Program-made: the position numbers and the translations under genes
NCBI RefSeq assembly: GCF_000012485.1
Contig: NC_007512.1
Location: 1,489,001-1,553,000 of the forward strand
Direction: 5' to 3'
Length of the DNA: 64,000 nt
DNA from: Pelodictyon luteolum DSM 273
GTDB taxonomy: Bacteria > Bacteroidota > Chlorobiia > Chlorobiales > Chlorobiaceae
Shown here: positions 7,594-26,742 of the stretch, piece after piece
How positions within the stretch are numbered: the first letter of the stretch is position 1
Layout of the letters: every line of letters begins with the position of its first letter
Notes under the pieces: model-generated
The model's input: the letters and a program-made list of their open reading frames with translations, nothing else
What the model was told of the DNA's origin: nothing
The model's database searches: none

Positions 7594-8289
7594 TCAATAG
7601 ATCAGCTCCCCTCCGAACTCCTTAATGATGTAGCGGACGACCTCGTTCGTGCCGGTCAGTTCCCCAAAGAGGGTGAAGACGCTCTTCTCTCTGGTGCAGG
7701 CGTCTTTTTCCGCATCGTAACGGATGCGGACCCGGAGCGGTTTCTGGTAAAACGCCGTCAGCTTCTCTCCGAGCAGGTCGGCCGCCCCGATCAGTTCCTC
7801 GCATGAGAACTTCCGGCAACAGACGAGATCGAGAACTCCTTTGGCGTTGCAGGCCGTAATCTCGCATAACTGCAGGTGCGTTGCCATGACGGACCCTCCC
7901 CCTTTCTGGAGACTGTCGAGAAAGAGGTTCCACTCAAGGCGAAGAGCCTGTAGATCTCCATCATCGCATGCCGGGGAGCCGGACGGAGAGGGGCCGCTGC
8001 CTCCGGAAACGGAAGGAAGGCGGGCAGCGGGGTTTGAGACGTAGCCCGTGAATTTTTTCTGCCATGAACCGAGGTCAAGCCCTTCTTTATGGGGCGCGGG
8101 ATTTGGCTGCCCGGTCGCTGCAGGCAGAGACTGGTCGAGCGGGGTATCAAAGGCCTCGGGGACTTCTACAGGCGGCGGCTCCGGCAGAGGAGCTGGCTCA
8201 ACGGAAACAGGCGGCTGCCCGACAGGCTCACTCTTCTGGGAGGCGACTGAGGGATCGGCAGTCTTTCGGCGGGATGCTACATCAGGGGC
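7594..8289 (-). CDS. dnaX: dnaX tau-specific C-terminal extension, read by -1 frameshift
   Basis: This open frame continues dnaX in the -1 frame without any stop for 231 codons from the slip site. It begins A-P-D-V-A after the A-run and ends with the GGELIY C-terminus. The first about 125 residues are proline- and serine-rich, a linker as in tau of other bacteria. The last about 95 form a compact domain with a CCRKFSCEELIG segment, plausibly the polymerase alpha-binding domain V. The internal ATG at 7885-7887 is not needed as a start. Joined to the 393 codons upstream it gives a tau of about 624 residues, close to E. coli tau (643). Confidence 0.8.
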   Translation of the reverse strand, partial: APDVASRRKTADPSVASQKSEPVGQPPVSVEPAPLPEPPPVEVPEAFDTPLDQSLPAATGQPNPAPHKEGLDLGSWQKKFTGYVSNPAARLPSVSGGSGPSPSGSPACDDGDLQALRLEWNLFLDSLQKGGGSVMATHLQLCEITACNAKGVLDLVCCRKFSCEELIGAADLLGEKLTAFYQKPLRVRIRYDAEKDACTREKSVFTLFGELTGTNEVVRYIIKEFGGELIY

Positions 8290-9467
8290 TTTTTTTTTTG
8301 AGGCTCCTGCGTTATCGGAAGCTTGCCAATGTCATCGGCCGGAAGGTGCAGCTCGATCAGCCGGAGAAGGGCCAGCTCAAAGCGGAACTGGTACTCGAAC
8401 TGGAACTTCAGTTCTTTCTGGGTTTCAAGCAGGAATGAAGCCATCTGCATGAGCTGCCGGGCGGAAAACTTGCCGGCATCGGCCTCATAGCGCTCCCGGA
8501 CGGCATCGGGCCGTTCGACAAGGCGCGAGGAGCGGAGGTTCTGCACCATGAGGAGGTTGCGGAGATGCTCGATCAGCTTTTCAAGAAAATCCTGCTCGTC
8601 ATAGCCGTTCTGGATGACGAACTGAGCAACCTCGATCATGGCTGGAGCATCACCGGCGGCAATGGCGTCGGTGACGGCAAAAAGCTGTTCGTCATCAATG
8701 TAGTTCAACAGCTCTGCCACGTTCTGGTAACTGATGGCGCCATCCCCTCCTGATTGGGCTGAAAAGGCGATCACCTGATCAAGGATGCTCTGGGCGTCAC
8801 GCATCGAGCCCTGGGCTTTGCGGCACACCAGCTGCAGGGCGTCCGGTTCGACCTTGATTCCTTCGGACTCGCAGATGCCCTGCAGCTGCTGCTGGATTTC
8901 GGGCAGCGGGATCCGCTTGAAATTGAACCGCTGGCAGCGCGAGGCGATGGTCGCGGGAATCTTGTGCAGTTCAGTCGTGGCGAAGATGAAGATGGCATGC
9001 GGCGGCGGCTCTTCAAGCGTCTTCAGAAACGCATTGAAGGCTGCAATGGAGAGCATGTGCACCTCATCGATGATGTAGACCCGGTAGCGCCCCTTCTGCG
9101 GGCCGTAACGGACGTTCTCGCGCAGAGCGCGGATATCGTCGACGCTGTTGTTTGAAGCGGCATCGAACTCGGCGATGTTGAGGCTGGTGCCGGTCTCGAA
9201 GTCACGGCAGCTTTCACACTCCCCGCAGGGCTCGGTAACATCGCGGAGCCAGTCAGCATCATCGATCATCCTCTGGCAGTTGAGGGCCTTGGCAAACACT
9301 CTGGCAGCCGTGGTCTTGCCAACGCCTCGAAGACCCGAAAAAATGTACCCGTGGCCGAGCCGTCCCATCCTGAGCGCATTCTGGATCGTGCGGGTGATAT
9401 GCTCCTGCGCCGTGATGTCGGCAAATTTTGCCGGCCTGTATTTTCTTGCGATTACCTGATAACTCAT
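8277..9467 (-). CDS. dnaX: DNA polymerase III clamp-loader subunit gamma (in-frame product); tau by frameshift
   Basis: The in-frame product is 396 residues, the length of a gamma subunit. It has the AAA+ clamp-loader domain with Walker A GVGKTT near 50 and a zinc module (cysteines in CGECESC, about 81-87, plus an upstream Cys). It also has a DEVHML Walker B near 133 and the sensor/SRC region. DnaX loads the beta clamp and, as tau, tethers polymerase cores. The frame ends five codons after a decamer of A (8290-8299 on the plus strand as T), where a -1 shift enters the long downstream frame. The start overlaps the yihY-like stop by ATGA. Confidence 0.95.
   Translation of the reverse strand: MSYQVIARKYRPAKFADITAQEHITRTIQNALRMGRLGHGYIFSGLRGVGKTTAARVFAKALNCQRMIDDADWLRDVTEPCGECESCRDFETGTSLNIAEFDAASNNSVDDIRALRENVRYGPQKGRYRVYIIDEVHMLSIAAFNAFLKTLEEPPPHAIFIFATTELHKIPATIASRCQRFNFKRIPLPEIQQQLQGICESEGIKVEPDALQLVCRKAQGSMRDAQSILDQVIAFSAQSGGDGAISYQNVAELLNYIDDEQLFAVTDAIAAGDAPAMIEVAQFVIQNGYDEQDFLEKLIEHLRNLLMVQNLRSSRLVERPDAVRERYEADAGKFSARQLMQMASFLLETQKELKFQFEYQFRFELALLRLIELHLPADDIGKLPITQEPQKKKPLM
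8289..8308 (-). promoter_or_regulatory. dnaX programmed -1 frameshift site with Shine-Dalgarno-like stimulator
   Basis: Read on the minus strand, AGGAG (8308-8304) is followed by CCTC and ten A then G. The heptamer A AAA AAG (8295-8289) lies in the correct frame and 8 bases after the AGGAG. E. coli dnaX uses the same heptamer and an AGGGAG stimulator. A weak downstream hairpin (GACTG/CAGTC) lies about 40 bases on. Transcriptional slippage on A10, as in Thermus dnaX, is an alternative. Confidence 0.8.
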
Positions 9468-26565: not shown

Positions 26566-26742
26566 GTCTCTGGAGCTATGGGGTCGTGGCAAAAAGAGGA
26601 AAAAAAAATTAATTTTTAACCCGTTTTCATTATATTCGGAGTCCCTGTAAGTGTATCGGACCTTGAAGGATGGCTGAGGATACCGCGGGGCTTTGAAGTA
26701 CTGCCATAATATAACCCGTTTCATCCGAAAATGCAGGACACG

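Follow-up and report, generated by a model that had tools for sequence, protein, structure and literature searches.

A split dnaX gene with a conserved A-run in Chlorobiales, probably decoded into gamma and tau by transcriptional slippage

Results

Two reading frames of dnaX meet at a run of ten A's

The window, by which we mean the whole 64,000-nucleotide stretch of DNA analysed here, belongs to a complete genome of 2,364,842 bases whose closest named relative is Pelodictyon luteolum CIII (97% identity in the gamma part of dnaX). Its dnaX gene lies on the minus strand and consists of two reading frames that meet at an A10G sequence at 8299-8289. The following features are referred to throughout, in window coordinates:

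8277..9467, minus strand: gamma ORF, the 0-frame of dnaX, 396 aa, with AAA+ domain, lid and domain III
8290..8299, minus strand: A10 run at the gamma/tau junction, containing, together with G8289, an in-phase A_AAA_AAG
8282..8284, minus strand: third-frame TGA, outside the frames of gamma and tau, at which translation of A9 and A12 transcripts would end
8277..8279, minus strand: TAG stop of gamma, in the templated frame
7594..8289, minus strand: -1-frame extension of 231 codons, with a linker and the tau C-terminal domain (domain at about 7594-8085)
7594..7887, minus strand: mechanically called ORF of 97 aa, the end of tau and no separate gene
8304..8308, minus strand: AGGAG, Shine-Dalgarno-like, 8 nt before the heptamer, common to the window and its sister genome only and of doubtful role

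In the gamma frame the junction reads CAA AAA AAA AAG CCC CTG ATG TAG, and the -1 frame continues past it as GCC CCT GAT GTA, open for 231 codons down to 7594. Joined across A10G, gamma and the extension make a tau of 624 aa. The gamma ORF matches Pfam PF13177, PF22608 and PF12169, all above their cut-offs (AAA+ clamp-loader domains, lid and domain III), and the E. coli gamma/tau chains at a phmmer E-value of about 7e-84. Gamma ORF and tau tail also match NCBIfam NF011516 (397 positions) and NF011515 (620 positions), which hold the short and the long dnaX as two models; recoding is absent from these entries as displayed.

The original prediction described this layout accurately. Its gamma of 396 and tau of about 624 residues correspond to the ORF at 8277-9467 (minus strand) and to the joined product, its A AAA AAG heptamer is in phase in the gamma frame (A10 at 8299-8290 plus G at 8289), and its AGGAG is found 8 nt before the heptamer, at 8308-8304. 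The -1 frame is open for the 231 codons it gave (8289 to 7594), and the 97-residue ORF that it placed at 7594-7887 is present as the tail of tau.

The -1-frame extension behaves as coding sequence

Compared with the sister genome, the 231-codon stretch of the window gives an omega of 0.30 for the tau frame, as against 2.45 and 1.00 for the other two frames, and omega falls to about 0.17 in the last two thirds. The C-terminal domain encoded in the -1 frame is about 50% identical among relatives (45-72% in the Chlorobiaceae aligned) and about 30% identical elsewhere in the order; 10 columns of the alignment are invariant. There is no ATG, GTG or TTG in the -1 frame before 7887, and the conserved domain begins about 70 codons earlier; its front can therefore be made only by joining the two frames. 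The 97-aa ORF corresponds to positions 525-620 of NF011515, the model of full-length gamma/tau, and in 15 of the 89 Chlorobiales loci compared below tau is encoded in a single frame. By these comparisons the extension is genuine coding sequence, and the 97-aa "hypothetical" is the C-terminus of tau.

The layout of the ORFs would in itself also fit a sequencing error, a pseudogene or two separate genes, readings to which we give next to no credence. The same layout recurs in 74 loci and omega is 0.30, on which grounds all three were rejected. A separate gene for the -1-frame ORF was rejected as well, since the first possible start, at 7887, lies inside the conserved domain and tau is fused in 15 relatives. 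The split in the window gene is, on sequence grounds, real and apparently functional, yielding gamma and tau.

A structural model of the tau C-terminal domain has a confident core (block pLDDT >90) and resembles domain I of DnaA (Z 9.9) and DciA (Z 7.7). The C-terminal domain of E. coli tau is matched weakly (2aya, E 0.09; 5fku_E, Z 6.3, rmsd 5.4 over 93 aligned residues), and searching PDB sequences with a profile of the tau tail returned nothing significant. This domain would be the polymerase- or helicase-facing domain of tau.

The A-run is kept while the frame of tau changes

We compared about 190 relatives overall, among them 89 distinct Chlorobiales dnaX loci (79 from Chlorobiaceae and 10 from outside that family); these loci are related, and counts over them are not independent. 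An uninterrupted A-run lies at the junction in 89/89, with A10 in 80, A9 in 8 and A11 in 1, so that the conservation in other Chlorobi which the original prediction proposed to look for is found throughout the order. For a run of at least nine A's at this place, the synonymous chance is 2.7% for the window gene and averages 12.5% per gene, AAA making up on average 41% of the lysine codons in these genes.

Tau is out of frame with gamma in 74 of the 89 loci and in frame in the other 15, with the reservation that some of these states rest on draft MAGs and might reflect indel errors. A10 is found in 14 of the 15 in-frame loci, as in the window. In a maximum-likelihood phylogeny built from the gamma part (88 rows), the frame state changes 11 times, 10 of these changes being forced by well-supported branches. 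Chlorobium sp. N1 (L005), a near relative of the window, has tau in frame, and the in-frame locus L053 has an out-of-frame sister, L051. A continuous frame in related genomes had been named at the outset as an observation that would speak against recoding. Taken literally, 15 of the 89 loci are of this kind, yet they retain the A10/A11 run and both stops described below, and for that reason they support recoding. One dnaX has a further A-run: in L007, whose contig stretch is the same as that of L119 (Candidatus Chlorobium antarcticum), an A8 follows closely, 44 nt from where the A10 begins.

Homopolymer tracts of about this length can be unstable, and tau is expected to be essential. Phase variation at the DNA level, in which replication slippage would alter the A10 and turn tau on or off between cells, could draw on such instability, but we find it hardly credible: the length of the run is nearly invariant (A10 in 80/89), most frame changes leave it unaltered (A10 in the window and in 14 of the 15 in-frame loci), and cells without tau would presumably lack an essential protein.

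The A_AAA_AAG heptamer is in phase in the window and in 78 of the 89 loci, and tau is reached in the -1 direction in every split Chlorobiales gene (74/74). Both observations are what one would expect of -1 ribosomal frameshifting on the heptamer. Against it, the run exceeds what the heptamer needs, and frame and phase change repeatedly among the loci; in 11 of them the heptamer is out of phase and the run is kept nevertheless.

Stops close both frames other than that of tau

Transcriptional slippage would place ribosomes in all three frames, and a stop would then be expected soon after the run in each non-tau frame. With a -1 ribosomal shift, translation of a split gene is confined to the frames of gamma and tau. 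This contrast was the basis of the DISCRIMINATING test. The tau-minus-1 frame, which in split genes is read by neither product and never entered by a -1 shift, closes no more than 9 nt from the run in 79/79 Chlorobiaceae, compared with 11% at other positions of the linker. The other non-tau frame closes no more than 25 nt from the run, at a stop equivalent to the TAG of gamma, again in 79/79 Chlorobiaceae and compared with 9% at other linker positions. Among the 10 loci from other families, the third-frame stop follows this pattern less regularly (e.g. L082 and L086).

In the commonest register (69 loci), the T of the third-frame stop, which occupies position 3 of the second tau codon, is kept in 65, and this tau codon can specify P, S, R, L, H, G or D. 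TAA takes the place of TGA in two genomes, and the four loci without the T have their third-frame stop one codon later. That the T is kept while the amino acid varies, together with the TAA swaps and the displaced stops, argues that it is the stop itself that is conserved, and not the protein or a nucleotide motif.

The synonymous null for a third-frame stop is modest (20% in the window, 46% on average per gene), and the weight of this stop rests on its conservation despite amino acid change and on the comparison with the linker. As the per-gene null is modest and the loci are related, we give no combined probability. In E. coli K-12 dnaX, a gene with ribosomal shifting and the sole control, the -1 stop is at 3 nt, and the +1 frame closes only at 35 nt. 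The alignments show directly the run, both stops, a -1-frame domain under selection, and the conservation of all of these. For -1 ribosomal frameshifting, a conserved stop in a frame that the mechanism never uses is difficult to accommodate.

Ribosomal stimulators and lysine tRNAs

The original prediction had tau made by ribosomal frameshifting as in E. coli, with AGGAG as the upstream stimulator. This sequence is suitably spaced in the window and pairs well locally with the Shine-Dalgarno partner (shuffle p 0.025), but the mean shuffle p over the loci is 0.43, and AGGAG is found only in the window and its sister. Any of AGGA, GGAG or GAGG within 16 nt occurs in 11 of the 89 loci, and no conserved upstream Shine-Dalgarno stimulator was found among the 89. 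Folds of 45 or 70 nt downstream likewise gave no conserved 3' structure (mean z of about 0.1 over 89 loci). A stem-loop search in the window (z 0.38) found nothing. For the downstream stem-loop the window scores z 0.14 to 0.81, a measure with low power for a single gene given that E. coli dnaX itself reaches only -1.2 to -1.6. The genome holding the window carries both tRNA-Lys(UUU) and tRNA-Lys(CUU), whereas the E. coli-like mechanism calls for a sole tRNA-Lys(UUU) that reads AAG.

The E. coli-like part of the original prediction is thus not supported by the comparison: AGGAG is not conserved, no conserved 3' structure was found, and tRNA-Lys(CUU) is present. We consider it unlikely that tau arises by -1 ribosomal frameshifting on A_AAA_AAG alone, even with help from the upstream AGGAG, although Atkins et al. 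(2016; PMC5009743) name one Chlorobium species, C. phaeobacteroides, as a candidate whose stimulators resemble those of E. coli.

Junction runs and double stops in the wider Bacteroidota

To place the window gene in the phylum, we sampled 87 single-frame Bacteroidota dnaX genes and 16 genomes with a short dnaX ORF. A run of A9-A11 lies at the junction in 54 of the 87, and in 81% of these 54 both off-frames close within 9 codons, compared with 25% further downstream and 18% in genes without the run. Single-frame dnaX genes that lack the run occur too, for example in families f5, f7, f12 and f19. In the split genes (16/16), the junction has A10 or A11 and tau is in another frame, which is reached in 15 of them by one extra A. 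In the remaining genome, L208, the shift to tau runs the other way, by losing one A or gaining two, and this could reflect an error of run length in the assembly. Junctions with A9-A11 and double off-frame stops are widespread among L202-L217 and L222-L308, in single-frame and split genes, and family f15 includes both states.

Discussion

The window dnaX is probably a single gene whose two clamp-loader subunits, gamma and tau, arise through programmed transcriptional slippage on its A10, much as in Thermus thermophilus, with gamma as the templated product. RNA polymerase slipping on the run would produce mRNAs with about A9, A10, A11 and so on. The A10 mRNA would give gamma (...QKKKPLM-stop, 396 aa), and the A11 mRNA (also A8 and A14) would be read straight through into tau (...QKKKAPDV..., 624 aa). 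On A9 or A12 mRNAs, translation would end at the third-frame TGA and give a second form of gamma (for A9, ...QKKSP-stop). That the event takes place at RNA polymerase, how efficient it is and how gamma and tau share their tasks are all inferred.

The loci display what slippage would ask for, a junction run of about nine A's or more (89/89) and early stops in both non-tau frames (79/79 Chlorobiaceae). Slippage is favoured because A9-A11 is kept in 89/89 loci though A_AAA_AAG needs six A's, because a stop is kept in a frame that a -1 shift never enters, and because the frame state changes repeatedly and 11 loci lack the in-phase heptamer while the run is always kept. It is further favoured by the want of a conserved Shine-Dalgarno sequence or 3' structure alongside two lysine tRNAs, and by the A9-A11 runs shared with Bacteroidota (54/87 single-frame, 16/16 split), where one split genome (L208) needs the opposite shift. 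As for the original prediction, one gene with two products from a -1-equivalent event at the A-run stands, and ribosomal -1 frameshifting is not supported: a run longer than the heptamer needs and stops in both non-tau frames suggest slippage of RNA polymerase in its place, which the original prediction mentioned only among the checks to be made.

A ribosomal -1 shift on the in-phase heptamer may nonetheless add some tau. Such a mixed model, with slippage making most tau, would account for the joint presence of run and in-phase heptamer in 78 of the 89 loci, but nothing requires its ribosomal part and 11 loci manage without an in-phase heptamer, and we think it quite unlikely.

Several points speak against transcriptional slippage, among them the in-phase heptamer in 78/89 loci and the less regular third-frame stop outside Chlorobiaceae. 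By the rule of Antonov et al. (2013; PMC3711429), the -1 direction in 74/74 split genes points to a ribosomal event; a hypothetical bias of RNA polymerase toward adding A's would explain the uniform direction too. In the same article, the runs of 7 A's (C. phaeobacteroides) and 8 A's (Chlorobium chlorochromatii) are short for slippage.

More broadly, we lean toward the view that dnaX is frame-indifferent across Chlorobiota and much of Bacteroidota, with the polymerase sampling all run lengths and the templated frame hardly mattering. This reading could explain why the templated frame has switched at least 10 times in Chlorobiales while the run and two guard stops were kept.

The T. thermophilus gene slips transcriptionally on A9 (Larsen, 2000, as cited in PMC1088944 and PMC5009743). 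It has nearby stops in both non-zero frames (PMC5009743), and its two tRNA-Lys may explain why it uses slippage over ribosomal shifting (Atkins et al., 2016; PMC5009743). The window gene shares the long A-run at the gamma/tau junction, the close stops in both non-tau frames and the two lysine tRNAs. It differs in the templated product, tau in Thermus and gamma in the window gene, where tau takes one extra A and would be read from the A11 mRNA; slippage is also reported there and deduced here. With E. coli dnaX the window gene has in common an in-phase A_AAA_AAG, tau and gamma products and an SD-like sequence nearby. The E. coli gene, however, has A6, a Shine-Dalgarno sequence and stem-loop, gamma as the shifted product and a sole tRNA-Lys. 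In the window gene the run is A10, the stimulators lack conservation and the shift yields tau, and its genome has two tRNA-Lys.

The split architecture and the idea of slippage have been known since 2013. The article of Antonov et al. (PMC3711429) describes a cluster of two-ORF dnaX genes (17 genes, including Chlorobi) for which slippage was proposed; nine have 10 A's, Chloroherpeton thalassium has 9, C. chlorochromatii 8 and C. phaeobacteroides 7. The window gene has the same architecture, clade and -1-type transition to tau, with no difference in kind, and very probably falls in or beside the set. Atkins et al. (2016; PMC5009743) list C. phaeobacteroides dnaX as a candidate for ribosomal shifting, so that published views of Chlorobi dnaX differ, with slippage in 2013 and one Chlorobium species as a ribosomal candidate in 2016. 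Besides these two papers, we found no literature joining dnaX, frameshift and Chlorobium. Conservation of the third-frame stop, repeated frame changes and a phylum-wide survey were not found in the literature examined. What we add is evidence, drawn from comparison of sequences, that appears to favour slippage.

A stop in the frame that a -1 shift leaves unused, combined with repeated frame changes, provides a signature that separates the two mechanisms from sequence and can be reused on other A-run genes. There is also a warning for annotation pipelines: what looks in this phylum like a broken dnaX followed by a "hypothetical" tau tail is an intact gene.

Long A-runs are found elsewhere in the genome of the window as well, which has about ten runs of at least 10 A's on either strand. 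Within the window, another A9 lies at 26600-26608, 5' of an lpxD-like ORF on the minus strand and apparently intergenic.
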